NCBI GenBank assembly: GCA_001600415.1
Contig: BCJX01000014.1
Location: forward strand, 591,779 to 655,778
From: Pascua guehoae
Taxonomy: Eukaryota; Basidiomycota; Tremellomycetes; Trichosporonales; Trichosporonaceae
Length of the DNA: 64,000 nt
Direction of reading: 5' to 3'
This document shows, piece after piece, positions 8,618 through 54,216 of the stretch. Under the pieces are notes generated by a model. That model was not told where the DNA came from. It was given only the letters and a program-made list of their open reading frames with translations, and ran no database searches. The translations under genes and the position numbers were made by a program. Numbering within the stretch: position 1 is the stretch's first letter; every line of letters begins with the position of its first letter.

Positions 8618-8718
8618 TGACTCATTCCAAGGAGGCTTGCATTCACGGGCGTTTCGTCTACTTAAAGAGGACCTACTGACCTTGTTCTTGGCACCAACTC
8701 CCCTCCTCCCCATCCCCT

Positions 8719-11700
8719 ATGCGCTCCACATCACTTGTTCTGGGCGCTGCCGCCCTCGGGGCGGTTGGTGTCCTTTCCCACCCTCTGGATTCAAACGAAC
8801 CCAGCCTCGCCCGCCGCCAAGACAACAGCGGTATCATCGACATCCCGTCACCGGTCGAGCACACGGGCGACGTCGACGCCTGCGCGGGCTACAAGCTCGT
8901 CGAAGTGTCCGAGCGCGACGACGGTACGGGTGTCAACGGCGTGCTCGAACTCAAGGGCACGTGTGGTGCTTATGGCCCGGACTACAAGACGCTCAACCTC
9001 ACGGTGCGGTACGAGACGGCCGACCGTGTGCGTGTGCGCATTGTCGATGCCGAGGGCAAGGCGCATGTGGTGCCCGATGACGTTGCGGCGTGGCCCAAAA
9101 TCGACGCCAACACGGTTTGTGACAAGGACAGCGCCCTTTCGTTCGAGTACCAAGAAGACCCGTTTTCGTTCAAGGTGACTCGCAAGTCGGACGGCGAGGT
9201 CATTTTCGACACCGAGGGCCAGGCTCTGATCTTTGAGGAGCAGTATGTCCGCATCAGGTCCAAGCTCGCCGAGGGTTCGCATATCCAGGGCCTTGGACAG
9301 CACAATGACAACTTTACGTGAGTCTGGCGAGTGTCCATTGAATTTGTGCTCACACCCCAGCCTGCCCATCGAGGACCCCACCTATGTCCGTACTCTGTGG
9401 TCGCGCGACGCGTACGGCGTGCCCTCGCGCACAAACCTGTACGGTGCCCACCCGTTCTACGTCAACCAGAAGGTGGGCGAGAATCCGTCGGCATCGGGTG
9501 CCTTCCTCCTCAACTCGGAGGGTATGGACATCAAGTTCCCGGGCAACGAATCGTACATCGAGTATGACACGCTCGGTGGTATCATTGACCTGTTCTTCTT
9601 CAACGGCCCCACCCCTGGTGATGTCGCACAGCAGGGCGCCCAGGTGTTTGGACCCAGCCACATGGTACCCTACTGGTCCCTCGGGTTCCACAGCTGCAGG
9701 TACGGCTACATTGATATTGCTGAAGTGGCCGAAGTCATTGCCAACGTGAGTGACGAGGTCCCCGTCGGGGACACTTTGACCACTGCTGACGCCACAGTAC
9801 ACCGAGGCCAAGATTCCGCTCGAGACGCAGTGGATGGACATTGACTACATGTTCAACCGCTGGATCCAGACGCTCGACCCTGAGCGGTTCGCGCTCGAGA
9901 AGACGCGCTATGTCATTGACCAGCTGCATGCGACTGACCGCCATATGATTGTCATGGTCGACCCGGCCACCTTTAGCGGCACACCCAACATGACCGCCGA
10001 CGACTATGAGACGCTCCAGTCGGGCATGGACCAACAAGTCTTCCTCCACTACGACAACGGCGACCTGTACCAGGGCGTCGTGTGGCCTGGCCCCACGGCG
10101 TTCCCCGACTGGACCGCTGAGAATGCCCAGTCGTGGTGGACTGCCGAGTTTGCCAGGTTCTTTGACCCCGAGACTGGCGTCGACGTGTCTGGTGAGTTGC
10201 GCGGTACTCTCCCCAGTTGCAAAAACGTAGTCAACATTGCTAACATCCACAGGCATTTGGCTCGACATGAACGAGCCGGCCAACTTTTTGCCATACCTCG
10301 AGGCCAACATCTACCGCATCTCTGACGAGCGTGTGTCTCCCCCCCCTCGCCCGCTGCCGCGTATTATCCCTCGCGCGATCCCTGGATTCCCAGCATTCAC
10401 CCCCGGGACCAACATCTCTGCACCTTTCGGCAACGCCGACGCCGACACGGGTGCCACGCGCCGGTCTCTCACTATTCAGGGCAACAATCTCGTCGCGAGG
10501 CAAAACTACCCGCCCTTCCCAGACACACTTGCCGACTACCTCGACCCATCGCTCGACAGCCAGTGGCTCTACCCTCCCTAGTGTGTATCCTCTGACCATA
10601 CAAAACGGCAAGCAACTGACAACCCAGCCGCATCCAGGACCGCCGTGCCCCGCCGTCTGCGAGCAACGCCGACGAGGGTCTCAAGAACATTTCTGACTTT
10701 ACCGCCCGTACCGACCTCATGCAAGCCAACGGCGCCCGCATGTACGATGAGCACAACCTGTACGGCTCGCGCCACGCCATCCGCACCCAGGAGGCACTCA
10801 CCGTGCGCAAGCCCGATGTTCGGCCGTTTACCATCGCACGCTCGAGTTTCTCGGGCACGCCCAGCGGCCTGTGGCTCGGTGACAACCTCTCGACCTGGGA
10901 GCAGTATGGCGAGACCATCCGGCAGATGCTCCAGTTTGCTGCTATTGGCGGCGTTGGCGTCGTCGGCGCCGACAGCTGTGGGTTTGGCGGTAACACGACC
11001 GAGACCCTGTGTGCTCGTTGGGCATGGTGAGTCCTTAAGTCGTAGATGACGTTGCATTATAGGGATACATTCGCGCAAGCGATAACCTAAGTAGCCGAGA
11101 TGGGGACAATTTAGAGGCCGACAGCGGCGCGTGGCGCCGCCACTCGGCACGACAGCGAGACACTTTATACACGTTGAGGGTAGTTTGCTAACACTCCAGG
11201 CTGGGCGCGTTCAACACGTTTTACCGCAACCATAACGAGATTAGCAGCATTTCGCAGGAATTCTACCGCTGGAACCTGACGACGATTGCGGCGCGTGCCG
11301 CCGGCCGCGTCCGTCTCGAGCTGCTCGACTACACCTACTCGATGGTCCACAAGCAGGCACACGAGGGCATCCCGACCATGTGGCCGCTGAGCTGGAAGCA
11401 CCCCGAGGAGGCGGCGACGGTCCGCATCGAGAGCCAATTCTACTATGGCAAGAGCCTGCTCGTCGCGCCCGTCACGGTCGAAAACTCGACGAGCGCAACC
11501 TTCTACCTGCCGAAGGACAAGTACTACGACTACTTTACGCTCGAGGCTGTCGAGGGCCAGGGTGCCGAAATCACCCGCGACAATATCGGGTACGACACAA
11601 TGCCGCTGTATATCCGCGGCGGGTGGATCCTTCCCCTGCGCAAGGGCGAGAGCTACACGACCACCGAGAACCGCGACCTGCCCTTCCAGCTCGTCGTCGC

Positions 11701-18802: not shown

Positions 18803-21669
18803 TTACATCCCAAACCGATGAACCATGTCATCTGTATTGTCAGCAAACACGACTATCCACCAATGCGCCAACATACTGTGTGTGCGCAGCTCCGAGATCT
18901 CAATGGGAGTCATTGGTGTTCCGTCCTCCCTCCACCCTTCGAGACCGTGGTACGTCAGCTCGTGCAGCTGCGACAGGGCGCAGTGCGGCTGCCGGACTGG
19001 CTCGACAATGCGCCAGTTGCCATCCTCGTTGTTCAGGAGAACCGAGTTGCGAGAGCTGTGGTAAGCCAAGGCAATAGCTCGTACGACTTTACAGGCACGC
19101 AGGTATGCGTGGCCCGTCGTCTTGACAGCCACCCGCACCGACATCGACTCACTCCATTGCAGGATCCTCGTCGTGGAAGTTCCACGGAATAATGAGGAAG
19201 TAGCTCGTAGCGACATTCGTGAGCGTGTTGGGTGAGTCCTCTGCGCGCGGAATGTGGTGCGTGCCCAGGTTGGCCCAGACGACGAGGTCCTCGTGACGGA
19301 TACTCTCATTGTTGAAGAGCTGCGACGTGAGTGTTGCTCCCCCCGTGCACAGTGTTCTCACCTTGTCATAGTCGACCGGCGGCGCGCCGGGAAGGTTGCC
19401 GTTCCACATTGAGCACGACGACGGCTCGTCGTCGTGGTACCGCGTAACGCCCAGATGGTGCTTTGCCCACTGGACCGACTTTTCTGTCCGCTTTGCGTCG
19501 ACGTTGGCGAGGTGGCAGAGGGGACCAGGATGGAGGGCATATCCACGCGGGTTCCCCCAGGCGTTCTTTTCCTCTTCGTTGATGACAACGTAGGCGCCCT
19601 CCATGCTGCCCCTGTCAGCAATGCCACTATGGCACTCCAGCTCACTTTTGCGGGTAGTTGAATACACTCTCCTCTTCCACAATCTCGCGCACAATCTTGG
19701 ACTGGGTAGGAGCGCCCCATCCATCGATGTCTGCCCATGGCACGTCAAGGGTCTCGCGCTCCAAGCCAACTTTCACAAACGAGTTTTTCGTGCCGAGGAC
19801 GTCAAAGTCAATCTTGTAGTTTATGACATGGTCGTGCAGGGACCCCATGGCCCCCGCCCGAAGCTTGTGGCCGTAGGGCGCTTGGCCGTCCTCCCAGTAC
19901 CCTCCTTGCAGATATCCCGATGCGGAGACCCGGACTTCAATAGTCCCGTCGAGCTGGAAGACATAGTCGAAGATGCTGTGCGTGAGTAGATGTCACTTTA
20001 TACAGTGACGCACTAATCGTAATTGCCCACAGAGGATATACTCCGGACCACCAGTTCGTATCCCTTCACGGCGCCCATTTCGTCCCTGCCTTTACCCGTG
20101 TGGCGCGAGAGCGGCCGCTCGGCCTCGCGTTCATAGACACAGATTGCGTTCCGGCGTGTCGTCGATCCCATTTCGTGGACCGTGGCGTTAAGGAGCGCGG
20201 CGTGGGCAGGGCAGTCGTAGCCTAGGATGACTTCACGCACCATTCCGCCCATCCCAAACGCGCGGTCGAGCCACACTGTCGAAGCCTGGTGCGGGTCTCC
20301 GCCAGAGTACTGCGCCATGGCCTCCTGCGGTGACAACTCGTAGATGATACGCTCGGAGCGGAAGCGAATGTCCCACAGATGCAAGCCCATATCGCGCTGG
20401 AACGACGTGTAGAATGCCCATCCCATCCACGTCACGTACCCCTCGCCCACGTCGATGCGGTACCGCGCGCCGTCGGCCTGGATCGTGCGGGGCCCAGCAC
20501 GGTCGTCCAAGTCGCGCCGCTTGCCGCGCAGCTCCCTCGTAGCCCAGTTTGTCAGGTCCCAGTCGTCGGCCTTGCGCTGTATCTGCCCCGCGTTGTACGC
20601 CGCGCGAAGCTCGTCGGCAGTTCGGTACATTTTGCCACGGACAATGTACGCCATGACGTTGTACTGGCCCCCGTCGGTGCCTGTCAAGTCCACCTAGGTG
20701 TCAGAAGTGAACCGTGTCGAGCAGCTGAACGGTGGGCTACACCTCGAACAATCTTACCAAGAAGTGGAAGTCAACAGCATGCAGCCAGTGCCCCGGCCTC
20801 TCACGCTTCAGCTGCGCCCACGCCCGTCGCCAGCTCCCGTCGTAGCTCAGGGGCATGACTGCGGAGAGCGTGAGCGTTCTGTCGGCGATGGAGATGTTGA
20901 AAAGGTCATGGATAATGTCATCGAGCGGGGAGACGAGCCTCCCGATTGCCTCGGCGAGTATGGCATAGTTGAACGTCGTCCGCGAGTTGAGCGGGATGGG
21001 CGCATGGTAGATCTCTGTAATGGGGCGCAGCTTGGTAGCGTTAGAGAGCGGGAGGGGCCCGATCAGGTAGTCGGAGATGCGCTCGTACACGCCTTCGTTG
21101 ACAATGGCCTGGGGTCAGACACGGTGGGAGCCGAGGCCAGCTCTGAGCTTAGAATTAGTAGTGCTCACCCGCGCATACTGCGCCACGCCGCGCGTCGCGT
21201 CCGAGAGGTACGCCAACGCGTTGTCCTTGGGCGGCGGGTAATTCTCCACCAAGTGGATAAAGTTGTCGCTATCCGTCAACCATCAGTGCTGGTACTGACC
21301 CACCTGTCCACCGCCACGGCCGAGTCGGTGAGGTTGAGCCCCTGCGCGGGGTCGGCGAGCCACTGGCGCAACGCCGTCGCTTCCGTGACGTCCAGGTTCT
21401 TCCACAGGTCTGCTTCGTCAGCTACTTGACAGTAACGTCTACACACTCGTCCGGGGCGCCTTGACGTGCACTGCCTCGGGCGACGGGCACCGCCTGAGCT
21501 GGTCTTGGTGAATGCCACGGTACTGGTGCATACAGAGGACGATGGCGAGCAGGACCGCACCGGCGGTGAGAAACGGCCATGGTCGGTGGGGGCGGGTACG
21601 CCGCTGGGGCTCGGCCGGGTGCTTGTCGGACAGGAGAGGCTGCTGCGCCTCGGCGTCTTGGGATTGCAT
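18803..21669 (-). CDS. Membrane-anchored copper amine oxidase (TPQ type)
   Basis: Nine exons: 21669-21447, 21412-21304, 21268-21169, 21108-20758, 20693-20014, 19975-19646, 19611-19362, 19319-19153 and 19055-18803. All are in phase, giving 820 aa. A cytosolic tail (MQSQDAEAQQPLLSDK) precedes one hydrophobic segment (PFLTAGAVLLAIVLCMHQ), so the enzyme is probably a type II membrane protein with its catalytic part outside or in the lumen. The cofactor motif SVGNYDY puts the tyrosine that becomes topaquinone at residue 486. Copper ligands are the His-x-His in SLHDHVINYK (535 and 537) and a His in THHIPRAED (702/703). The Asp in WLDRAFGMG is the probable catalytic base. These enzymes oxidise primary amines to aldehydes, H2O2 and ammonia, so a role in nitrogen scavenging is likely. 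A longer start at 21741 is possible. Confidence 0.93.
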
Positions 21670-25621: not shown

Positions 25622-26836
25622 TCACTCTACTGTCTCGACCCGCCACTGCTCCTCGCCGACTGTCCGACGATACTCGTCTCGGGGCACAAACGTGACCGCG
25701 TCGTGGGAGATACCGGGGTGGTAGGGAAGCGGAGTGCGTAGGGGTGACGCGGACACAATGTCTCGAAAGGCCGACACCATCTCGTCGGGCGTGAGGTGGG
25801 GGTACCAACCGAGCCACTGGGGACGGAGGTGTTCGAGTCCGACGACGGTCAACTTTGTGCGACCGAACGTGCGCTCCGACCATAAATGGTGGAGAAGCGG
25901 CCAGAGCATGCCTGCACGGATTCGGTTTGGGGTTCCGTGGACCCTTTCGGCGATATCGGTAAGTCTGATCCCGGGCTCGTCCGGGCCGAATACGACCGGG
26001 CGGCCGTCGCGCTCCAGTGTGTGTATCCCAATATCCATGTCGCGGCCAGGGTCTTCAGGCTCGGCGTATGGTTGTCCTCGTTGGGTAAAGTGCACGACAA
26101 TCTCCTCGAGGCTCTGGACACGCGGGTGGACGTCCATAGAGTAGTAGGCGTTGTTGAGCCACGGCGCCGGCTCGTAGATCACATTGACCACGAGCCGCTG
26201 CGCGCGCGTCGCGAGTAGGACACCGGGGGCCATCGTGAGGAACTGGTCGCTCACGTGCTGCGGGCCTGCCTCCTCGGCCTCGGTGAACACGACAACCGTG
26301 TTGGCACGCGGATGCACGTGCCGCCTCTCGGGGTGGTACCGGAGAGGTACAGGGAGAAACTGGGCGCTGAGATGGGGTCGGCCAGTGGGCACGAGGTGGA
26401 GACGCAGCGCGTCGAGATCGTGGGAAAGGCTCTCGACAATCGAGAGCAGGTGAGTTGGCGGCACGGGCCCCACAATGTCGAGGACGCGCACGAGCTCAAA
26501 GTCGATGGGGACAGGGATACGCAGCGGCGCGTTGCCCGACGGACATGGATCGCGGCTCTTGTTGTATGCCAACCACGGCCCAGCATCGCCCACGCCATAC
26601 GGGGTGATATCGGTACGCGCATCTCGATGGTCAATGACCAGGTGCGAGAAGATGATAGGGTCGACGCGCGACTTGATCTCGTGCGAGAGGAGGCGGAGCT
26701 GGAAGAGGACCGAGCGCGGCGCCGCCGCCAGCACCGCGTCAAAGACGTGCGGGAACGATAAGTGGTCAAGGATGCAGGGAGGTGGGTCGCGCCCAGTGGG
26801 GACAGTTGCGTTGATGCTCCCCAACGTCTCGTTCAT
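25622..26836 (-). CDS. F-box-like tandem family protein, paralogue 1
   Basis: A single uninterrupted frame of 404 aa starts at an ATG at 26836. N-terminal module: SFPHVFDAVLAAAPRSVLFQ, then LRLLSHEIKSRVDPIIFSHL. This follows the helix pattern of an F-box (a hydrophobic helix, Pro, then the Leu-Arg-x-x-Ser region), but it is too diverged to be certain. The middle has VRVLDIVGP and LVVNVIYEP. Near the C-terminus come LTVVGLEHLRPQWLGW and the conserved tail VTFVPRDEYRRTVGEEQW plus VETVE. The same ordered blocks recur in the four neighbouring genes. If the F-box is real, the protein would be the substrate-recognition part of an SCF ubiquitin ligase; that is inference. No signal peptide or membrane segment is seen. 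Confidence 0.8.
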   Translation of the reverse strand: MNETLGSINATVPTGRDPPPCILDHLSFPHVFDAVLAAAPRSVLFQLRLLSHEIKSRVDPIIFSHLVIDHRDARTDITPYGVGDAGPWLAYNKSRDPCPSGNAPLRIPVPIDFELVRVLDIVGPVPPTHLLSIVESLSHDLDALRLHLVPTGRPHLSAQFLPVPLRYHPERRHVHPRANTVVVFTEAEEAGPQHVSDQFLTMAPGVLLATRAQRLVVNVIYEPAPWLNNAYYSMDVHPRVQSLEEIVVHFTQRGQPYAEPEDPGRDMDIGIHTLERDGRPVVFGPDEPGIRLTDIAERVHGTPNRIRAGMLWPLLHHLWSERTFGRTKLTVVGLEHLRPQWLGWYPHLTPDEMVSAFRDIVSASPLRTPLPYHPGISHDAVTFVPRDEYRRTVGEEQWRVETVE

Positions 26837-27233
26837 CGCGGAACTGAAAAGAGTTAGTGGTCAAGTGGCCAAGTGGGCAGTGTCAGAGTTAGATCGCGAC
26901 ATGACAACAAGCAAGGGCCGTTGAAGTCTTGTGGCGCCCCACGCCATTGACGTCATTATTGCTTCCGCTTCAATGCCCACGCCCACACTATCACTGTCTC
27001 GAGGTGGACTGGGCGTGGATGCATACAGTAGTGTGTGGTAGCAATAATAGCTCATGCAATCATTTGTAAAGGACGGAAGTGCACAATCACAAAGATGGGC
27101 ATGCAAAGTGTGAGCTAGGTTGGTAGGGGAATCTCGTGCAGTAGCGCGGTAAAGCTCTTGATGGATCAGCCTGGCACTGCAGTTCTCACAGTGACACGCA
27201 CATATGTCTGGGCAGGGTCGCCCGGCCCGCCCG
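26837..27233. other. Spacer between paralogues 1 and 2
   Basis: 397 bp without a gene. It must contain the promoter of paralogue 1 and the 3' end of paralogue 2. No TATA box or repeat stands out. Confidence 0.4.
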
Positions 27234-28274
27234 TTACTCCTTGGTCTCAAGAAGATACTGCTCGTCGCCAACCACCGCGCGGTACGCGTCGCCCGAGATG
27301 AACCTGACGCGGTCGACCTTGTCGACGACAATGGGAATCTCGAGGGCGAGGGCCGGCCGATGCGCCGTGTCCGCATTCAACCACCCGTTGTGGTCGAGCA
27401 AAGCCCAGAGATGCTCTGCAATCCACCCGCGGACACAGTCTTCGACCTTGGCGCCTCTGGGCTCGACGCCGAGGAAGTGCGGGTCGATGAGGTGCAAATC
27501 GACTAGTGTGACCTTGACATCGGCCGAAACGTGAAGCTGCGCGCGGTTGAGCAAAAGGTCGGACATGGCCGCACCCAACAGTCTGCCCTTTGACGCCCAC
27601 GTGCCGCGGAAACGGGGTGGTGACCATCTCCCACACACCACGACGACGTCGCGGATGTTATCGGGCGCGGGGTGCAGGCGGATCGTGTCCCACAGGCAGG
27701 AGGGCTGGTCGAGGTGCCGGACATTGACGACGACCTTGCCCGGTGATGAAGGGTGGACAATCTCGCCGCCCTTTAGTGGGTCGTGCCACCAGGCCGAGAG
27801 TCCCGGCTCCCCAAACGATACGAGCGTCGGCGCGCGCAGCAGGCGCGCCCACGCAAACGCGTACACCCAGTCGTCTTCGCCAGGACGTAGTCGGACAACA
27901 TCGACCCGGCCGCACAGCGGGTCCAGGAGCTGGGTGATCATCAGGTTACCGTACAGGCCCCCCTTTAGATCTACGATACGTGTCGTACGGTTATTGTAGC
28001 CCGGTATACGACCGCAGAAGGGTGCAGCAGCGCGCAGCTGGACGCTGTGATGGATCAGACCATGCTGTTTCTGCAGCTCCTTGTCGGTGACACGTTCGGA
28101 TTGCGTCGAGATCACGATATGCCGTCCCATAATCGCCGACACGCGCGTCTGGAAGTCTTTCGATGTCCCACGGAAGGCCAGAAGGAGCTCCCATGATGCA
28201 GCGTCGAGAATGGCGTCGATGATGTGCGGGAATGCGGCGTGGTCGATCACGACCGGTGGGTGTGCGGACGTCAT
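27234..28274 (-). CDS. F-box-like tandem family protein, paralogue 2
   Basis: An uninterrupted frame of 346 aa starts at an ATG at 28274. It shows the family blocks in order: AAFPHIIDAILDAASWELLL with AFRGTSKDFQTRV; TRIVDLKGG; VVVNVRHLD; VTLVDLHLIDPHFLGV; and the tail VRFISGDAYRAVVGDEQYLL followed by ETKE. The conserved Glu before Tyr in the tail is Ala here. It is shorter than paralogue 1 mainly in the middle. No intron is needed, in contrast to the neighbouring non-family genes. The function is unknown beyond the possible F-box. Confidence 0.8.
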   Translation of the reverse strand: MTSAHPPVVIDHAAFPHIIDAILDAASWELLLAFRGTSKDFQTRVSAIMGRHIVISTQSERVTDKELQKQHGLIHHSVQLRAAAPFCGRIPGYNNRTTRIVDLKGGLYGNLMITQLLDPLCGRVDVVRLRPGEDDWVYAFAWARLLRAPTLVSFGEPGLSAWWHDPLKGGEIVHPSSPGKVVVNVRHLDQPSCLWDTIRLHPAPDNIRDVVVVCGRWSPPRFRGTWASKGRLLGAAMSDLLLNRAQLHVSADVKVTLVDLHLIDPHFLGVEPRGAKVEDCVRGWIAEHLWALLDHNGWLNADTAHRPALALEIPIVVDKVDRVRFISGDAYRAVVGDEQYLLETKE

Positions 28275-28724
28275 GCTCAGCGGTGGTTGTGTCGCACGGC
28301 TGTTCAGCTTCGAGTCGAGGAAAGAATATCGCCTCTCGGAGCGGAACGTGTGTGAGCGGGAGAGAGAGTGTCGGTTCTACTCCTTTGAGCGGGGATGGAT
28401 GGGACTCGGCCTGTGATGAGTGAACAATGGACAACAAGAAGAGAGCTGGATAAGATCGGGAGGCTGATGTGGAGGGGATCGATCCGAGCCAACTTTAGTG
28501 GCAGCGGGGCACCACACCCACCAAGGCTTGGCAAATATACACGCAGCAGCATTTGCTGCTTGTGTCATCCATAGTTTACTCTGCACTTGCCTAACGAACC
28601 GAGCACTGATTACCAGTCGTACAGGGGACATTGTATGCATTGGGGGGACGGACAATCTACAAAGTGGATATCTATGGCTTCTTAAGGGGGTTGCGCTGTT
28701 CTGGGAGTGTGTTGCTTTTAGAAA
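28275..28724. other. Spacer between paralogues 2 and 3
   Basis: No gene seen. It contains the presumed promoter of paralogue 2 and leads into a half copy of the two-hairpin element. Confidence 0.4.
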
Positions 28725-28763
28725 GGTCGGGCCCGCCCCAAGGGCGTCCGCGGGCCTTAATTT
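28725..28763 (+). repeat. Two-hairpin element, half copy (inside the array)
   Basis: GGTCGGGCCCGCC ... GCGGGCCTTAATTTTGG matches the right half of the element, including the GGGCCTTA end. The left hairpin is missing. A nearly identical ending (GGGCCTTAATTTT) is found at 37549-37560. Confidence 0.6.
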
Positions 28764-28912
28764 TGGAGCTTGAGCAGCTCCTGGAGGTTGTCACGGGTTC
28801 GTGTTCGAGACAGGGAACGTGCGGTGGCTGGCGATTTCATCGGTGTCGCGGTCTCAGCAGTATTCGTACAGCTTTGGGGTGCGGGACGTCGCAGAGGGTC
28901 TACCCGAGCCGC

Positions 28913-30004
28913 CTACTCGGCGGTTTCGAGGGCGAACACCTCGTCGCCGACTTGTGCGCGGTACTCGTCGCGGGTGAGGAACGTAATTTCTTCGGCTGCG
29001 GCCTTCGCTTCGTCCTCTGGCCAGCGGGACCAGCGGACGAGACCGTCCTGAACGGCCTTGACGATAGTCTTCTGCACGACGTCCGGGGGCGACTTTGCGC
29101 CTGGGCCAGTCTGGACGCCGAGCCACGCGAGCTTGAGCTGTTGCGCGTCGACGAGCGTGTACGATATGCGCGGGAGGGTCATGGTGATGCGTAAAATGAT
29201 GGTGTTGAGGAGGCCCATCGGCTTGACGGCGTGGCGGTACCAGACCGCTTCGGACTCGCGGTGCGTCGTGATCTGCGTAAACACGATAGTGGTATTCTTG
29301 AGGCTCGCCGGGGTCGACCCCGGCGTAATGTATCCTTGAGGCAACCACGCGCGCCCCGGGTCGTAGCGAATGTTGAGGACGAGGCTCTCAGTACCGTCCG
29401 GAACGGGGCCGACCTCGGCCACGCCCGGATAGTCCCATAACCCACTCTCGGAGAAGGTTGTAAATGTTACGAGATGAGGGGCGTGCACGGGCGACTGCGA
29501 TGGTAACGGGCCGGCGGGACGGTGACGAACGCGGACCGTCTCGACGCCGCTCAGCGCGTTCACGATCCATTCGAGACGGTCATCCGGCATTCCCTGCGGT
29601 CCAACGAGGTCCACGACTCGCGTGTGCGCAAGCTGCTGCACGACGTGCTCGCGACCGATGGACTCGTCCTCGTCGAGCGGTCGCAGAGCGGGAATCCGCC
29701 CGTGCCGCCCGGAAATATCGGCGGGCGCATAGCTCGAGATCTTCATGTGCCGCGCAAGCAGTGGGTCTGCACGATCGCGGAACGCACGAGAGGCGGCGCG
29801 GAGCGCAATGAGCGAGCGGCGGGGGGCGTGCTCAAACACATTGTCGAGGATATGCGGAAAGTGGGCGTGGTCAATGGCGACAGAAAGGAGCGGCGATGGG
29901 GCGCGGTCCGGGGATGGACATGTCGAAGGCAGAGAGGGTGGGAGGGGTGGCAGCTCGACCGTCGTCCCCAACGGAGGTGTGGGGTGGGTGGCGACGGCGG
30001 CCAT
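28913..30004 (-). CDS. F-box-like tandem family protein, paralogue 3
   Basis: A 363-aa uninterrupted frame from the first in-frame ATG at 30004. A longer frame to 30037 has only a GTG. A Pro-rich leader (PPLPPSLPSTCPSPDRAPSP) precedes AHFPHILDNVFEHAPRRSLI with ALRAASRAFRDRADPLLARH. Then come TRVVDLVGPQGMP, LVLNIRYDP, TTIVFTQI and YTLVDAQQLKLAWLGV. The tail is ITFLTRDEYRAQVGDEVFAL plus ETAE. This is the best match to the family consensus at both ends. It is divergent from the carrier gene, whose ATG is 448 bp away, so the two may share a promoter region. Confidence 0.82.
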   Translation of the reverse strand: MAAVATHPTPPLGTTVELPPLPPSLPSTCPSPDRAPSPLLSVAIDHAHFPHILDNVFEHAPRRSLIALRAASRAFRDRADPLLARHMKISSYAPADISGRHGRIPALRPLDEDESIGREHVVQQLAHTRVVDLVGPQGMPDDRLEWIVNALSGVETVRVRHRPAGPLPSQSPVHAPHLVTFTTFSESGLWDYPGVAEVGPVPDGTESLVLNIRYDPGRAWLPQGYITPGSTPASLKNTTIVFTQITTHRESEAVWYRHAVKPMGLLNTIILRITMTLPRISYTLVDAQQLKLAWLGVQTGPGAKSPPDVVQKTIVKAVQDGLVRWSRWPEDEAKAAAEEITFLTRDEYRAQVGDEVFALETAE

Positions 30005-30451
30005 GGTTGGATGAGCAATGGCAACAAGACGAGTCACCAGGTGGAGCTTGTTTCAGTGGCGGTGGCGGCGTTTCGGCCCCGCAGCGTCGGATAATTAATT
30101 CTTACACCAAACTCCACAGCAGCCATCGCCATCTCAGTCCTCGTCGTCACACGTTGCCCACCACCAACAGTGTATTCTCGACCGTCAACACTCTCGGCCA
30201 TGCTTCACGCCCGCCAGCTGCCGCCAGGTGTATCCGGCCCGACTTGCGTAGGCTACTTTGGCGACTAGGATTTGGTGGTTATCGCCCCTTGATTCAGGTC
30301 TGCACGGACGAGCAGCTCGGGCGAGACAAACACGTAAGAAACGAGTGATTGTCCAAAACGGACACCAGCCCACATACCACACGACTGTACATCAGCTCCA
30401 GCTCATCATCAACACCGGTTCTAGCTCTCTTCGTCACAGCCAAATACGCCA
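30005..30451. promoter_or_regulatory. Divergent promoter region, paralogue 3 and carrier gene
   Basis: 447 bp between two start codons on opposite strands. There is no clear TATA box. The only AT-rich part is AATTAATTC at about 30092-30100. Confidence 0.4.
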
Positions 30452-32256
30452 ATGATGGGAGAACAAAGCAGAAAACGCGACCCGATCGCGACAGAGGTGG
30501 TCCTCGACCCCGAGGGCGAGAGCCTCGCGCCAGCGCCAAAATCGCACTCGCCGTTTGTCGGCTTCGCGGCGGGTATCCTGTCTGGGTACGTTGACCGTGT
30601 AGAGGAGGGATAGTAGAGGAGGCATAGTACTGACTCGCGCAGATGGACCAAGGTAGGCCGCGCTGAAGACGGGAGCTGGGGGACCCGACATGCTGACATC
30701 GCGCCCGTTTACAGTTGATAGTTGGTGAGTCGCTCCGGAGCCCTCAACTGCCCGCCAGCCGCTGACAACAACAGGGCACCCTTTTGACACGATTAAAGTG
30801 AGATGAAGCGCCCCAATGTTCCTTCAGAGTCCTAGCTGACACCGCAGACTCGATGTGCGCCTCCTCACACCCACCCCTCGGCAATGCTGACATCCAGTGC
30901 AATGTGCTCCACCAGGGACCTACACTGGCGCGTGGAACTGCCTCAAGACAACTGTCGCACGAGAGGGCCCGTTGGCAGTGTACAAGGGTGCATCGGTTCC
31001 CGCCATCTCGTGGGGAATCACAGACTCGATCCTGATGGGGAGGTGAGTTCGGTTGGGCCTGGCCCCCGAAGGGAGCTAACAACAGCTTGCACAACTACCG
31101 CGCGTTCCTCAAAAAGCACGGCTTTGGCGAGAGGATACCGGGATCAACAGAGGATGGACCTGGTGGCATGCGCCTGTCGCTGCTGGGACATAGCTTAGCG
31201 GGTCTGTTTGCGGGCTGGTCAAAGTGAGTTCAAGTTGTTGGGCGCGAGGATCGTGGTCGCGCCGTGTTGTCGATGTGCCGCGCATAGCCTGCGGGTCTGG
31301 TCTGCAAGTCTCCATGGCTGTGACCAGACGCCCCGCGGCAGGTGTGCCTTCCTGTGGCAGGTGGTATACTCTGAGATGAGGGCCACAGCCTGCAGTGGCG
31401 TCAGCATCACAAATGTTGTCAACATGCCCGACATTTCGGCGAGTGGCCGTACCTGGTGACTCACTCGTTTCTTCCGATGTCCCCTTTTGTCCACTGTCCT
31501 CCTGTTTTGTGGCCGAGTGTTCCTCATTTGGGTGTCTTACTAATTCCCAGTGCGCCTGTAGCCCACCCGACCGAGACGATCAAGTGCAAACTCCAGCTGC
31601 AGCTCGTCCAACCTGATCACCTCCCGAAACAGTACTCTGGCCCTATCGACGTCGTCCGGCAGACTGTAAAGGCGCTGGGCGTTACGGGCATGTGGCGTGG
31701 TCTTCCCGCGAGCTTCATGTACCGGTCATGCTTTGCTGCCATGTTTGGAAGTGAGTAAACGATCGCTCCGAGCAGTGCCCATACTGACCATAGGCTTCGA
31801 GGTGTTCAATCGCGTATTCAGCAGCTGGAAGGGCACGACCTGGGAGATGTCGCCTGGCGCTGCAAACTTCTTTGCCGGCGGTCTCGCGTCAAACGTCTAC
31901 TGGTTCACGGCATTGCGTGAGTCGCTGCAGTACTCATTCCGGTTCTCTGGCTCACACCGCAGCACTGGACAACATCAAGAACCGCCTCATGGTCGACTCG
32001 CCCACAAACCCTCGGTACAAGGGCGTGTTGGACGCGTACCGCCAGACATGGCGGGAGACGTACGATGCGCGTCGCAGCTTGGGGTGGAACAGCCTTGCGC
32101 GTGTGCGCAACTTTTACAAGGTAAGTCGTGTCCTGATACTGGCGATGAAGCCTTGCTGACAGTCAGGGGTTCGTCCCCGTTGTGCTCCGCGCGTTCCCCA
32201 CAAACGCGGCGGCGTTGGCGGTATGGGAAGGAGTCATGCGCTGGGCGACAAAGTAG
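30452..32256 (+). CDS. Mitochondrial carrier (SLC25) family protein with micro-exons
   Basis: Eleven exons: 30452-30585, 30643-30652, 30715-30724, 30775-30797, 30848-30854, 30898-31042, 31086-31223, 31551-31750, 31794-31916, 31963-32120 and 32167-32256. They sum to 1038 nt and 345 aa with every junction GT-AG and in phase. The three carrier signatures are present: GHPFDTIKTRLQ, AHPTETIKCKLQLQ and PLDNIKNRLM, each starting the PX[DE]XX[KR] motif after an odd-numbered helix. This defines three repeats and six membrane helices in the inner mitochondrial membrane. Other blocks are GTYTGAWNCLKTTVAREGPL, YKGASVPAISWG and MWRGLPASFMYRSCFAAMFG. The substrate cannot be told from sequence. Exons 2-5 are 10, 10, 23 and 7 nt long. 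Intron 7 (31224-31550) is long for this genome. The gene lies between family paralogues 3 and 4. Confidence 0.92.
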
Positions 32257-32667
32257 AACCGGGGTGGGTGTATAGCAGACGTCGTCAGCTGGCCGACGTC
32301 AGCATCCGCTAGGCACGTAGAGAGTGGAGCAACGGCTCCCACCAGGTATAGGATGGGCGACCAGCTCGGTGGTAGTCGGAAGTCTTGAAGGCAGCAGCAG
32401 CATTGGACAAGACAGTTTTGGGCAACTCAGCATGGGCTGATCCTCATCATGTAATGCAATCTACAACACGCCGTAGCAAACAGAGATGAATAGCTGTGTG
32501 CTATGTAATGGCTGGGTCCATTATACCTGAGGACACGCCGTCCAAAGACGCGCCAAACAAAGGTGACGAGTACAACCATCATATGGGAAAAACAAAAGGT
32601 GTACGTCATTCAAACTTGGCCGTCAGCGACAACTCCCACATGCCCCCCTCGTGTCCTTGACAAACCC
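32257..32667. other. Spacer between convergent carrier gene and paralogue 4
   Basis: 411 bp with no gene seen. It should contain the two 3' ends; AT-rich stretches near 32440-32480 and 32560-32600 could serve polyadenylation. Confidence 0.35.
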
Positions 32668-33819
32668 TCACAGCGCCCCGTGCGCACTCACCACTGCCTC
32701 AAGCTCCATATCTCCTGGTTTGAGCGTTGCAGCGTACTCCTCCCGACTGCGGATGCGGATACTCTGCACAAGCTCGTCTGCAATTTCACGGTGTCGGCGG
32801 GTATCGCACTCGAGGTAGAGCTGGGTCTTTACGAGGTCCAAAAAGTCGTCGACGGATATCTCACGCGCCGGGAGGTCGACGAGGGTACACGTTGGCGCCG
32901 TGCGCCAGCCATGGAGCGTGGGCCGAAAGTGGTTGACGAGACCCCTGGCGATGAGTGGCCAGGTATTGGGTGGTGTTCCGACCTGGTTGCTGGGTGGTTT
33001 CTCCTTTGGGGCATCGAGGCATGTAAAGATGTAGACGACCTCGTCGGTGCTCACCTCGCGGACCATGACGTCTACGGGCCCCGCGTGAGTAATGTGAACG
33101 TTTGAGACGAGTTTGGGAAAGTGGCGCGAAAACCCCACGCCGCCGATACCGCCACCTCGGTCCTCGTTGTCCTTTGCGGTCGGAGAGAGGGGGAAGAGGA
33201 CAACACGGGGCGCGGTGGGCCAGCACCGCCAGTGCTCGGTGGGCGCCAGCGCGAGTCGGAGGGTCTGGACGTGCGTGAGTGTCTGCCATCCCCATTCAAA
33301 GGAATAGACGGCCCCGCGCAGGTCGAGGACGCGGACAAACGACAGCAAACGGGCGCACGCGAGGCGTTCTGTCCACCCGCGCCGCGCGAGCATGGCTCGC
33401 GGGTGCGGGCTCCAGTCGGCTTCCCACCCCTCATAGTCCCTCGGCGGGAAAAAGGGCAGCTCACAGCCCCCGCCCGCACGCGTCGTGATGGCATTCTCTC
33501 GCCCCGCATCCGTCCCGCTGACGACAATGTGCTCGAAGGCCAACCGGTCGACGAATTCGCGGTATGCCCGGCACGTCGAGCGGAGGACAGCCCAGCTGGC
33601 TGGGTGCGATGCGATGGCCTCGAGAATGTGCGGATATGCAGACGAGTCGATGCGGGCCGCCGCGGGGTGCGACGCGAGGGGATGCTTAGAAGGCGGTGCT
33701 GCGTTTTCGGCTTTGGCTTCTTTAGCACCCATCAGCTTTTGCTCCAGATCGACTGTAAAGCACCGGCGCTCACCCTTGTCTCCGACAGTGTTGCTTTCGC
33801 CGTTCAAATCTGCCGCCAT
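32668..33819 (-). CDS. F-box-like tandem family protein, paralogue 4 (diverged tail)
   Basis: A 383-aa uninterrupted frame from the ATG at 33819. An upstream GTG at 33903 would add 28 residues but is not preferred. N-terminal block: SAYPHILEAIASHPASWAVL, then RSTCRAYREFVDRLAFEHIV. The middle blocks are VRVLDLRGAVYS, LVSNVHITH and VVYIFTCLDAPKE, followed by CTLVDLPAREISVDDF. The C-terminal tail that the other four share is weakened here to IRIRSREEYAATLKPGDM and lacks the final Glu-Thr. It is closest to paralogue 5 at the N-terminus (the same SAYPHI and PASW). Function unknown. Confidence 0.78.
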   Translation of the reverse strand: MAADLNGESNTVGDKGERRCFTVDLEQKLMGAKEAKAENAAPPSKHPLASHPAAARIDSSAYPHILEAIASHPASWAVLRSTCRAYREFVDRLAFEHIVVSGTDAGRENAITTRAGGGCELPFFPPRDYEGWEADWSPHPRAMLARRGWTERLACARLLSFVRVLDLRGAVYSFEWGWQTLTHVQTLRLALAPTEHWRCWPTAPRVVLFPLSPTAKDNEDRGGGIGGVGFSRHFPKLVSNVHITHAGPVDVMVREVSTDEVVYIFTCLDAPKEKPPSNQVGTPPNTWPLIARGLVNHFRPTLHGWRTAPTCTLVDLPAREISVDDFLDLVKTQLYLECDTRRHREIADELVQSIRIRSREEYAATLKPGDMELEAVVSAHGAL

Positions 33820-34149
33820 GATGAGCAAGTATTGTTGAGAGAGCAAATGCAGGCGCAGGCGCGGTTTGGGATGGTGAGATCGCACGCATTTGTTTGAAAG
33901 CACCAGCCTGCAATGACGTCACCGTGGAACCCACAACGACAAACAATGAGACACCAGTTGGGCCTGGACTGCTTCCAGGGTGCCTAGAGAGAAACCTCTC
34001 GGCGAGCTGTCACTCTACGGTACTACAGCACCCATTATTGCTTACATCTATAGTACATGAGGTTGTCGTGGCGAGGATCCTGTACCACATCGCAAGTGCC
34101 TCCTCTACAGGAGCAATCCCATACAACCGCCGGTCCCCTCTGCCACCCT

Positions 34150-35226
34150 TCAATACCCCTGCTTCGTCTCAAAGTCGTACTCGCTCTCTCCAACCTGCGC
34201 CCGATACTCGTCGTGGGAGAGAAACACGAGGTCTTCGAGGACGCGGTCGACAAACCCCACTCGGTCGTGTTTGTCACTGTGGTAGCTTTCGAGGTGGCAC
34301 CGGAGCTGGGCGACGAAAATGTCTTGTTGGGAAGCGCCATGCTCCCAAATCCCATTGTGCCCGACGTCGCACAGATTGAGGTCGACATTGGTGGTTGGAA
34401 AGCCGACGACGATACGCCTCTGGCGGTCCGAAGTGTCATACTCGTCATTATTGGCCGTGCTGAGGACAATGTGCGACAAAAAGTCGTACCACTGAGTGCG
34501 GAAGCGCCGGAGCTCGTGCTCGCACAGCTGCACGGGAGAACGTCCCGATGCAGGGGTTGTACTGGTGCGATTGCCGTTGATACACCACAGTGGACACTCT
34601 GGGTGGGGCTCGACTCCTTCGTGGAAGACGTATACAAACTCGTCCGCGAGCACAATGTCGTCCTTCGTGAATGGGAGATCGGGGTCGAATGTGAATCGTG
34701 GCCCCCACCGAGGCGAGCACGCGACGTTGGTCACCGCCTTGCCTATAGGCCTCAGGAATACGGCAACGACATCGCTCTCGACGCCCATAGACGGTGGAAA
34801 TGAGACAATCTTGGTGGTGGCTTTCAGGCAGGTGTCGTTAAAGACTGCTCGCTGCAGTTCGCTTCCGAAACATCGCACCGCATCGATATCGGATAAGAGG
34901 TTGATCAGTGCCTTCGTCTCATGGTATTCGTAGTCGCCGTGGATGTCAATGATGCGGACGTGCTTCAGAAGACGTGCGAGCGTGTCCTTGACATCCGAGG
35001 GCCCAGACCGCGCCCAGTCGCGTGGCGGAGAGCGGGGTATTGGGAGAGGAGAGTAGGGCGAGGTTACAGTCGAGTTGAAGACGATGTGCCGAAACATGCG
35101 CGCATCCGCCTGCTCGCGATAGTAGCGCGAGGTCTGTCGAAGCGCAAGCCATGAGGCTGGATAGGATAGAATGAGCTCGACGATGTGGGGGTAGGCGGAG
35201 TGGTCGAGTGCAGACCGATCCGTCAT
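34150..35226 (-). CDS. F-box-like tandem family protein, paralogue 5
   Basis: A 358-aa uninterrupted frame from the ATG at 35226. The N-terminal block is SAYPHIVELILSYPASWLAL, then RQTSRYYREQADARMFRHIV, and it starts only seven residues after the Met. The middle has VRIIDIHGDYEY, AVTNVACSP and EFVYVFHEG. The tail LVFLSHDEYRAQVGESEY plus DFETKQGY keeps the family consensus. GC content is a little lower than in paralogues 1-3. Function unknown; the F-box assignment is tentative. Confidence 0.8.
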   Translation of the reverse strand: MTDRSALDHSAYPHIVELILSYPASWLALRQTSRYYREQADARMFRHIVFNSTVTSPYSPLPIPRSPPRDWARSGPSDVKDTLARLLKHVRIIDIHGDYEYHETKALINLLSDIDAVRCFGSELQRAVFNDTCLKATTKIVSFPPSMGVESDVVAVFLRPIGKAVTNVACSPRWGPRFTFDPDLPFTKDDIVLADEFVYVFHEGVEPHPECPLWCINGNRTSTTPASGRSPVQLCEHELRRFRTQWYDFLSHIVLSTANNDEYDTSDRQRRIVVGFPTTNVDLNLCDVGHNGIWEHGASQQDIFVAQLRCHLESYHSDKHDRVGFVDRVLEDLVFLSHDEYRAQVGESEYDFETKQGY

Positions 35227-49508: not shown

Positions 49509-52500
49509 CTACTTTCCCCAACGCAGGCCCAACCAGCGCTTGCGCAGACTGTGGGCCGACTCTGGCTCGCCCGACTCGCGCCGCCCGTTGGGGGCGGGGC
49601 TAAAGTCTGTGCTTGCGGGGCTGGCGTGGCGTGCGCGGAGCCTGCGGTAGAGCGAGAGGCTGGGGCGGCGGGAGATGTCGGAGCTCGAGGTGGAGCGCGA
49701 GCGCGATGTGAGCGTTGTGGTCGAGACAGATCGGGGGAAGCTCGCGAGGGCCGGCTGTGTGGGGACGGTGCGGATGTGCGAGTCGCTCCGCCGGTTCGGG
49801 TTAGGGTTTGGCCGCGGGAGGGTGAGCGAGGGGCGGGGTGTGGCTCCTGTCCCACCTTGTCCGCCCGTCTTGGGGATGTGAAGGACGGTCAAGCTCGTCG
49901 AGGTCGGGACGCCCGGGATGCCCCGGACCGCGGCGCTCGGGATGGGCGGGGGGTCGCGCGGGTCGAGAAATTTCAGGCTCGACTTGAGCGATGTCGTCGA
50001 CACGCTCGGGGGCCGGATAGACGTTCCCGACACGCTCGGGGGCTGGATAGACGTTCCCGACATGCTCGGGGGCTGGATAGACGTGCTGGCCACGCTTGGG
50101 GGGCGGATAGACGTGCTCGACACGCTCGGCGGTGGGGGAGGGTGGAAGTGCGGCGCGGGGCTCTCGCGCCCCGGGCCAGGGGTATGCGAGCTGTTGTGGG
50201 TATAGATGTAAGGGGTATGGCCGTAGATGGTATGGTTTGTGACCGACAGGGTGTGCGGGAGCGAATGCACAGAGGATGTCGCCGACTCCACCGTGCTGCT
50301 CGTGCTGTGCGCGTACGGCAATGTGGTGACTGGCGACGACGGACGTGGAGAGAGTGAGCCGCGCGCCGGGTAGCGTGGCGCCATGGCTCCAGGCGGCAGA
50401 GGGAGTGGTGACGTTGCGCGCGATGACAGTGGCCGCTGGGACGTGATTGTATCACATCGCTCGACGTGGGCCTTGGGGTCGGCGTTGGGCGCCGCCTCGG
50501 CGAGCCACGATGATGTCTGTGTGCCCCGTCGTGAAAGAATCGCCAGTGTGGCAGGCTCGACCTGCCGGACTTGCTCGCCAGGCGCTTTCGAGCACGTAGA
50601 CTCCGGCGCCTCCAATGTGCTGACAGGCGGGCCGTTGGTAATGTTGAGCCCAAGGGGACCATTCGGCTTGTCTGGACTGACTGGCCGTTTGGGACCGTTA
50701 CCGACGACAGGCTGACTGGGGATGTTGTTGGCCTTGTGCGCGCTCTTGCCGCTGTGGTTGCTGCGAACGTCACTCGTACTCCCCAGCTCATGACTCGAGA
50801 TACTGGCGGGCAACAATGTCGGCGGCGCCTTGTCCCCATCAAGGCCCACAGGCATCGACTGCGACGACGGCAGCGTCCGCGATGGGTGGCGGAGGCGCGG
50901 CGGCGGGCGCAGCGACGTCACAGGGGAATTTAATGGCGAGGCGACCGAGGTAGCTGCCGACGGCACCGGGATCGGGGCGGGCACGTTGCTGCGTGGACCC
51001 TGTGGCCGCGCCTGTGTCGGCGTGCTCTGAGAGCTGTACGAGTCTGGGGGACGCCCCGTGGTGGGAGTGGTCCGACCCGCTGCAGAACCGTTTGCTTGGA
51101 TGGGCGGAATCGGGAGTGGCCGCCGCGCCCGCCGAACTGTTGGCGTATGGTCATCCACAAGGTGCGGACGCTCACGGGCGCGTGGCTTACGGCGGTAGTG
51201 GTAGCCCTCCGACTCCGCAAGCGCTTCGTACCATAACATACCGCGCTTCCCGTTGCACTCGCTGCCATCTTCATCGATATCGGCAGCGCCTGCGTCGGCA
51301 GCGCTCGCATCTGCAGCACTGGCCTCGGCGGCACTGGCATCTGCAGCGAACTGCGCCTCACGGGCCACCATGTGAGCTCCATTGGCGATATCACGCGCCA
51401 TGTCGCGTAAGTCAGTCATTGCACGTGTCCACACGTCCTCGGCCCGACGGAGGTTGGCCCACCCATCCCGGCCGAGACGGTCCGCCTCCTCGAGGAGGTA
51501 TGCAGCCGCGGGAGACTGTGGGCGATGGGGAACCGAGTTGGAAGGGGGCGAGAGGAGGTTTGGATCGTGGGCGGGGTGGTGGGTTGCTCCATGATCGCTG
51601 TTGAGGGTCTGTGCAGTGTGCGGCGCATGGTCGCCAGGGATCGTCGGCATGCCAGTGGCCGTTCCCTTTCCCCGGCTTGTCCCTGAGGCTTTGCGTGTGT
51701 GGGTGGGCCGTGGGGGCACGGGTGTTAAGGGATCGTCGTCGATCAGTGCGTCCACAGGTGCAGGACGGGCCGAGCGGGTGGGAGAGTCTTCTCGCAAGGT
51801 CACTGGGACATCCCTTGCCCTTGACACAGCCGGTCGAGTCTGGGCAACAGCCGGCGTGGTGTTAGGTGGTGTCGGGAAACCCTTGAGGTCAAAGGCAGTG
51901 ACCGATGGCATCTGCGGTGTCGATGAGGCGGCTGGTGTCGAGTGGATCGAGCCGACACCCGCGTACCCCATGAGACGGCTGCCCCACTCGAGGCTCTCGG
52001 CGGCCATGGTGCGCATGGTCGTGCTGACCTCGTTCATGGTCTCGGCGTGACGTAGCAAGGTGGCAGCATGTGTACTGAGCATGTGGCTCGCAACGAGAAG
52101 AAGCACCTCGGACGACGGATGCCCGTGCGCGAGATTCCGCTCCGAATTGCGCGCCGAATTGTGCACCGAGTTGTGCATTGAGCTTGGCACAGAGGTACTG
52201 CACGGTGACAACTGCAGGAGGTGCCTGTGCATGGACTCTGTGCTCGGGAGTGTGTGATCCGACGAGGAGCGAGATAAGCTTGGCGGCGACGATGGCGAGG
52301 TCGTGAGTGTCGCGTTCTCGCCAAATTCGGGGAGCGGTGACAGTTTCTGCGTCTTGTCGTGGGCGATGGAAGCGCCTGCTGATCGTCCAAGAGTGGAAGC
52401 CTCATCCTCGGATGGCGCGTCGGCGTTCTGTGCATACAGCTTCCTGCGGACATTTGCGTCCACAAGACTACCCGCACTCGTGCAACGTGGATGGTACTGG

Positions 52501-54216
52501 GCAAAGTCGTATGAGCCATAGGGACGAACGTCTGCGTGGTCCGAGCCGTCGTCGCGGACACCAAAGGTGCCAGACGTCCGGATGGCAGTGCGGATCGGCG
52601 TGTCACCCGCCAGGCTCTCGCCCTCTAAGCCTGAAAAGGAATTTCGGGGTGATGCCGTCGGAGTCTTGCCAGGCTTGCTGCGCGAGAAGAGCGACGATAG
52701 TCGCCCCGACCTCCGTTTGAACAGGGAGGATGATTCGTCCGGGTCGAGGAGCTTGTCCGGGGTAGACTGCAGATGCTTGGTTGGGGATGGCGACAGCATT
52801 CGACCTGGACGCCTCTTGTCGGCGGCACTCGAAGGGCGCGGCCGGTGGTCGGCCGAGACGGCACGAGGCACCTCCATCGAGCCACGCTTCCCGGGTTCAA
52901 GAGCGCTCTGTCCACGAACAAGTCCAAAGGCAGGGAGCGAGAAGGGTCGTGAGCTCCCTGACCGTGGTAGAGCCGGTTGAGAGGCTACAAGTGCCTTTGG
53001 CGTCCCCTTACGAGGCGAAGGCGGCGTCGACGACGGCCGCGGCATGTTCTCTATCTTCAACGACGGGTTGCTCCGCGGCGCCGAGATCGAGGTGGCGTCC
53101 ATTGACCGATGTCGCACCGCACGCGCCCGACGTGCTCGAATTGCAGTACCATTGGGAGTCAAGTGGCTGCGGTTTTGGAGAGATATTTGTTTGTTCTCCT
53201 CCTGCTGTGATCAGCGCGCGCGCAGAACAGTTTTGCACAGAAAACCTACACTCAACGGTACTCCCGTGACAGGCTCGCTCGAGGCCTGGCCCGTGCTCGG
53301 TTCCTCCTGTCGATCAGTCAAAGAATGGTTGCAAGAAACATACACTAAGTGAAGTGCCCCCAACACTGCCCCCAAGACGCTCGGTCGACCCCGTGCTCAT
53401 GGATGCACGCGATGGGCTTGCATCGCGCGCTGCAGCTCGAGTTGCCGCGACGCGTAAATCCTCGAGTGACGGAACAGGTTTGCGCTTGGAATATGATGCT
53501 GTCCGTGCTAGCTGTCGCGGTTGTGGTTCAGCAGATCCTGACGTAGTAGATGGTGCGGCAGGTGGGGATGGTTCACCCGTGATCGAAGTGGCATAAGAGG
53601 CCAGTGACGTCGCTGACGCGAGTGAGGGTGGCAAGGGTGGAACAGGTGGCACGGGTGGCAAGGGTGGCGGGGTTGCACGCGAGGCATAGCTGTCTGATCG
53701 CCGAGCTCCATGGGGAGTCACCCGAGGCCCCTTGAGGCTCGACTGGCGCCGTGGTAGCGCAGGGGTTGGTCGGGGCAAGCGTGACGGAGTAATGTCACGA
53801 CGCGCTTGAGTTTGTGGTAGAGGCGGTGCCGCCGTTGGACTGCTGGCTTCACTACCACCACCAGAAATAGTCGGTGAAAGGGGCGACGACGGGTCCAGTC
53901 GTGTAGGTGACTCGGGCCCCCGCTGTATCGAAGCGGCACGAGCGCGCGATGAGGTGCTGCGACGATCACGTCGAAGAGGAGACGGGATAGACGTGATAGA
54001 TGGTGAGGACGGCGCCGTCGCGAAGTTTGACGAACTGGGCGAACTTGGAAAGGTGGAGGTGGGCGAAGCGGGAAGCGGGGGCGGGCTATCCAAAAGAAGC
54101 TCTGAACCGGGATGCGAACGCAGTGTTGACGGCGCCGACTCGGGAGGAGACTGTAAGCTGCGCTCCGTTATCGGCGAGAGCGTGCGCGGTGCGCGTTCCA
54201 CCGTGGCCAGCTCCAT
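49509..54216 (-). CDS. Very large low-complexity, probably disordered protein
   Basis: Two exons: 54216-53344 and 53204-49509, joined by a GTATGT...CACAG intron in phase, giving about 1522 aa. The start is the first in-frame ATG. A longer N-terminus from an upstream exon (about 54548-54363, MISAEPGPSDTAV) is possible. The protein is dominated by Ser, Pro, Thr and Arg, with many short proline stretches (PPLPPVPPVPPLPPSL). Only two parts look helical: LLLVASHMLSTHAATLLRHA with AETMNEVSTTMRTM, and AAYLLEEADRLGRDGWANLR with RAEDVWTRAMTDLRDMA. There are small internal repeats (MHNSVHNSARNSERN, AAEASAADASAADAG) and a 10-residue tandem repeat. I recognise no family. This composition is common in fungal scaffold proteins of cell polarity or signalling, but that is only a guess. 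Confidence 0.7.
49996..50145 (-). repeat. 30-bp in-frame tandem repeat
   Basis: About five units of 30 bp, each encoding a variant of Pro-Pro-Ser-Val-Ser-x-Thr-Ser-Ile-Arg in the large disordered protein. Units begin at about 50002, 50032, 50062, 50092 and 50122 and differ by a few substitutions. The frame is kept. Confidence 0.85.

Follow-up and report, generated by a model that had tools for sequence, protein, structure and literature searches.

A tandem gene array in Pascua guehoae belongs to a large, intron-poor family of diverged F-box proteins

In FBXL proteins, among them KDM2A/KDM2B, FBXL2, FBXL3 and SKP2 as well as TIR1 and D3 of plants, an N-terminal three-helix F-box stands directly before a strand-helix solenoid. 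We describe here proteins with a comparable order of elements from the basidiomycete Pascua guehoae (Trichosporonaceae), encoded by a tandem array of five paralogous genes in a stretch of 64,000 nucleotides (contig BCJX01000014.1, positions 591,779 to 655,778; the window in the following, lying within contig C14 in our numbering). In contrast to FBXL proteins, their F-box scores below the curated cut-offs, no leucine-rich repeat (LRR) is matched by sequence, the predicted solenoid is irregular and the family has a C-terminal tail of its own. The KSS/KSL F-box proteins of the nematode Caenorhabditis tropicalis are fast-evolving and have known toxin partners, the KSS proteins being antidotes of Caenorhabditis toxin-antidote elements (PMC12680543); in the array, however, at least the third open reading frame (ORF3) evolves slowly. 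Ordinary PF00646/PF12937 F-box proteins of the same genome share a homologous first domain with the family, although the open frames round their matches are shorter. Finally, Cutaneotrichosporon proteins named "hypothetical" or "F-box domain" (P0005 and P0008) are the presumed orthologues of ORF3; the searches made found neither a function nor a family description for them. A description of the family was likewise absent from the F-box literature on Trichosporonales, Cutaneotrichosporon, Trichosporon and Tremellomycetes, as judged from titles and the beginnings of abstracts in a collection with few subscription journals.

Our analyses showed that the array does not stand alone. It is part of a very large, old and intron-poor family of diverged F-box proteins with at least 134 loci in the genome. 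We consider it likely that the five proteins act as substrate receptors of Skp1–cullin–F-box (SCF) ubiquitin ligases, their Skp1-binding end being constant and their reader diverged.

Five related genes in single open frames

Five uninterrupted frames of 346 to 404 residues occupy positions 25622-35226 of the minus strand, as had been read from the bare sequence in a first-pass annotation:

25622..26836, minus strand: ORF1, 404 residues, family member with F-box-like N-terminus, LRR-like middle and tail DEYRRTVGEEQWRVET
27234..28274, minus strand: ORF2, 346 residues, family member with tail DAYRAVVGDEQYLLET
28913..30004, minus strand: ORF3, 363 residues, family member with presumed Cutaneotrichosporon orthologues about 50% identical
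29744..29875, minus strand: F-box-like three-helix region of ORF3, residues 44-87, from a sub-cut-off PF12937 match (15.0 bits), the AlphaFold model and the profile-profile comparison
28916..28993, minus strand: C-terminal tail of ORF3, residues 338-363, a short strand and two helices in the model
32668..33819, minus strand: ORF4, 383 residues, family member with a diverged tail and a sister gene on contig C3
34150..35226, minus strand: ORF5, 358 residues, family member grouping with ORF4 and the C3 sister of ORF4

Alignment confirmed that the conserved blocks follow in the same order in all five proteins, with ORFs 2-5 being 23-30% identical to ORF1. BLASTP connected all pairs, the best E-value per pair ranging from 1e-15 to 3e-4 in a database of just the five sequences. 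Applied to every window ORF of at least 25 residues, a hidden Markov model (HMM) of 15 paralogues from outside the window matched exactly these five (E 5.6e-26 to 1e-79, Z set to 5000); its rows were kept from an alignment made with the window proteins present, which constitutes a small leak. The ORF4 match ended ahead of the tail (profile positions 22-299). This search revealed neither a further copy nor a recognisable remnant in the window. ORFs 1, 3 and 5 match the tail pattern proposed for all five exactly, whereas ORF2 has DAYR in place of DEYR and the tail of ORF4 has diverged to EEYAATLKPGDMELEA.

The single-frame state of the five genes, read from the open frames of the window, extends to the family. 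In the window and the fetched loci, the family HMM found 62 family ORFs at E <= 1e-15. A single frame covers the full length in 46 of them, a count from which L037:533-1117 (194 residues, spurious domain) is left out; the other 16 include parts of one and the same gene and frames cut off by the end of a locus. The open frame round the match has a median of 458 residues in 103 family loci, compared with 238.5 residues for 36 ordinary F-box matches. That all secure genes outside the family carry introns, as the first-pass annotation also held, was assessed lightly, by scanning 20 window frames with Pfam. A copper amine oxidase gene (19152-20693, minus strand; PF01179, E 5e-44 and 1e-31) consists of two or more frames and thus contains introns. 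However, an unbroken Ser/Pro-rich frame of 1233 residues at 49512-53210 (minus strand), whose status as a gene is uncertain and which has no Pfam match at E <= 0.01, would, if it is a gene, be another long single-frame gene outside the family.

A diverged F-box before a predicted solenoid

The family F-box comprises about 45 residues and begins with [FY]PH[IV], compared with LPxE in the usual F-box. Pfam reported F-box-like matches below threshold in ORF3 (15.0 bits) and ORF5 (14.8 bits), and at E <= 0.1 three of 20 family members matched PF12937 and two PF00646. Genome-wide, 14 of 93 PF12937 matches fell inside family loci, where 0.07 would be expected from the matched spans. One of these 14, at C15:29074, exceeded the curated cut-off with 25.3 bits; outside the family, 36 PF12937 matches did so. 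Because a test by Pfam alone is too weak, a profile-profile comparison with controls was added. With hhalign, residues 44-92 aligned to eight canonical F-boxes of the same genome with a score of 33.0 (probability 92.9), whereas 100 column shuffles reached at most 18.7 and five other family regions at most 8.2. Measured against these controls, the F-box call stands as homology, and at the level of sequence profiles the N-terminus is a diverged F-box related by descent to the canonical ones. Outside the array, a weak PF12937 match at 21390-21452 (minus strand, E 0.12, profile positions 25-45) probably arose by chance.

AlphaFold models were made for ORF3 and ORF5. Both place three helices at the position of the F-box (residues 50-59, 62-69 and 73-83 in ORF3; 13-20, 23-30 and 34-44 in ORF5), so that the F-box proposed in the first-pass annotation is borne out by models, profile-profile score and PF12937 matches in family loci alike. 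An irregular, LRR-like solenoid follows in both models, with the tail at its C-terminal end; the tail of ORF3 is among the highest-confidence parts of its model. In a structural second look, F-box-LRR proteins were the best rows for both models, at moderate Z. The models hence suggest that the middle is an LRR-like solenoid and that the tail forms its cap. Searched against the sequences of solved structures, the family profile returned a single match (E 2.3), which was unrelated and was discarded.

Copy number in the genome and relatives elsewhere

In the 33.6 Mb genome of 28 contigs, searches at E <= 1e-3 gave 109 matches with ORF3 as query, 51 with ORF5, 70 with ORF1, 65 with ORF2 and 30 with ORF4. 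Merged by hand from 325 match rows, they amount to at least 134 family loci on 22 contigs, a lower bound in which a few genes may be split or joined. A stop codon lies inside six of the 109 ORF3 matches. Among 24 fetched regions bearing a match, 23 held an ORF recognised by the family HMM at E <= 1e-15 and the remaining one, L050, covers a gene already recognised in L026. The 62 family ORFs include fragments that belong to the same gene. Many that were not seeds align over almost the whole family profile, tail included. A 626-residue open frame at L044:2112-3992 (minus strand) contains an almost complete family protein together with the first half of another, as would result from a fusion of two tandem copies.

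Cryptococcus neoformans belongs to the same class as P. guehoae, the Tremellomycetes. A published table of 24 fungi, one oomycete and three plants lists 11 to 95 F-box proteins per fungus, with the maximum in Laccaria bicolor and 19 in C. neoformans (PMC7991009). At least 134 diverged loci, to which 36 ordinary PF12937 matches add, exceed each of the 24 tabled fungi, in a comparison that is rough since the methods differ. One Skp1 gene was found in the genome, at C14:275521-275688 (L063, L064) and thus on the contig of the window. Some 4.4 kb separate it from a family match at C14:270862-271131, which may be coincidence.

Outside the genome, the presumed Cutaneotrichosporon orthologues P0005 and P0008 are 50% and 49% identical to ORF3. 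The UniRef name of P0008 is "F-box domain", and hence the label already exists in databases. In line with the suggestion of a lineage-specific family, named relatives were found only in two Cutaneotrichosporon species; however, the protein searches are no census. The profile search (10 matches, six of them shared with the seven of the other protein search) assigned scores only to those 7993 candidates with the most words in common. A search for ORF5 orthologues in 1443 candidates brought none at E <= 10, a result of little weight since candidates are selected by exact 5-letter words.

Two further features of the window lie apart from the family. At 4822-6387 (minus strand), a SacI-homology (Syja_N) domain was matched with E 1e-55, and at 8680-9318 (plus strand) the N-terminal domain of glycosyl hydrolase family 31 gave a sub-threshold match (23.1 bits, cut-off 27).

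Ancestry and possible roles of the family

An SCF receptor role fits the five proteins. By analogy with described F-box proteins, we infer that members of the family bind Skp1 and promote ubiquitylation. The N-terminal F-box would dock on Skp1, the irregular LRR-like solenoid would bind substrate and the tail, with its strand and two helices, would probably close the C-terminal end of the solenoid. Each family protein might thereby bring its own substrate to the ligase. Among the paralogues, mean entropy is 1.92 bits in the F-box, 2.33 in the tail and 2.89 in the middle (42 ORFs). Between ORF3 and six of its nearest relatives, in contrast, conservation of the middle equals that of the F-box.

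The first-pass annotation had regarded the array as a local expansion under changing selection with a possible part in self/non-self recognition, and duplication in tandem does occur in the family: 46 of the 134 loci begin no more than 4 kb from another, while 2000 random placements gave 4.0 such loci on average and at most 18. The five genes of the window are also the largest family cluster found, and ORF5 joins ORF4 and its sister (support 96/92). We nevertheless regard a recent local burst under diversifying selection as very improbable, and it was rejected on the tree, which comprised 53 proteins (42 of the 62 family ORFs, and P0001-P0011 from elsewhere). From tree and entropy counts alike, fragments and two-domain ORFs were left out; in the tree, bootstrap values have not settled and many branches are long, those of ORF1 and ORF2 among them. 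The five do not form one clade, and the starred branches force at least two origins. The sister of ORF4 is L058 on contig C3 (100/100), whereas ORF3 is placed together with eight proteins from other organisms (98/89), including two from Cutaneotrichosporon, another member of the Trichosporonaceae. Marking the five on the tree showed no clustering beyond that of shuffled labels, 213 of 500 shuffles scoring as low; terminal branches are very long, with a median of 1.34 changes per column. Nor did changing selection find support. Six close pairs compared over their whole length gave nonsynonymous rates (dN) of 0.38-0.69, synonymous rates (dS) of 1.0-1.7 and dN/dS of 0.22-0.50, with dS near saturation and the ORF4-ORF5 pair reduced to 90 codons. 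The conserved middle of ORF3 in its presumed orthologues does not speak for changing selection either. Paralogues conserved in F-box and tail, together with the conserved middle of ORF3, fit better with old duplicates that each keep their own reader surface than with a recent burst.

Several observations weigh against SCF receptors as such. The curated Pfam F-box cut-off (24.3 bits for PF12937) was missed by all five proteins, the best reaching 15.0 bits, and ORFs 1, 2 and 4 had no F-box match in Pfam at E up to 1. The Leu-Pro-x-Glu opening of canonical F-boxes is altered. An LRR family was matched in Pfam neither by the five (E <= 1) nor by 20 members (E <= 0.1). Foldseek alone gave no match at E <= 0.001 among 469, its top rows being unrelated. 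All structural Z scores were below 8, which may mean merely a common arrangement, and some F-box rows superposed the F-box of the model on the LRR part of the target (e.g., 7sa1_B from residue 340). Furthermore, the one Skp1 gene found compares with 21 in C. elegans (PMC4063957). The family might thus have kept an F-box-derived fold and lost Skp1 binding, the altered first helix marking the loss, and its proteins would then be SCF-independent LRR-like scaffolds or binders. The replaced opening, F-box matches under every curated cut-off and a single Skp1 gene beside so large a family favour this possibility; however, conservation within the family peaks in the F-box (Pro50 in 41, His51 in 38 and Arg69 in 40 of 42 ORFs), which argues for one common partner, and we hold the loss of Skp1 binding to be unlikely. 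Equally doubtful, to our minds, is that the family constitutes a repertoire directed at foreign or selfish proteins, comparable to the expanded nematode F-box sets with a proposed immune role or to the KSS antidotes. Size, divergence and architecture are similar: KSS proteins also combine an F-box unrecognised by sequence with a solenoid and degrade the toxin through SCF (PMC12680543), and an immune role is proposed for nematode F-box proteins (PMC4063957). Yet ORF3 is conserved in other organisms, including Cutaneotrichosporon, and whole-length dN/dS shows no fast evolution. An immune-like or antidote-like role of the family is possible by analogy, and diverged SCF substrate receptors remain the reading that we consider likely.

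F-box receptors are a known kind of protein; what is new here is the diverged F-box, the family tail, the copy number and the intron-poverty. Standard annotation based on cut-offs would miss most of the family loci. We may speculate, with considerable reserve, that a Trichosporonales-type yeast uses at least 134 F-box/solenoid receptors, most of them single-exon, in which the Skp1 end and the C-terminal cap are constant and the reader has diverged, together with one Skp1, as a fungal counterpart of nematode and plant repertoires, destroying foreign, selfish or aberrant proteins. If Skp1 is bound, the family would be among the largest fungal sets of substrate receptors known, in an organism with one Skp1 gene found, and would provide a tractable system for asking what large F-box repertoires are for.
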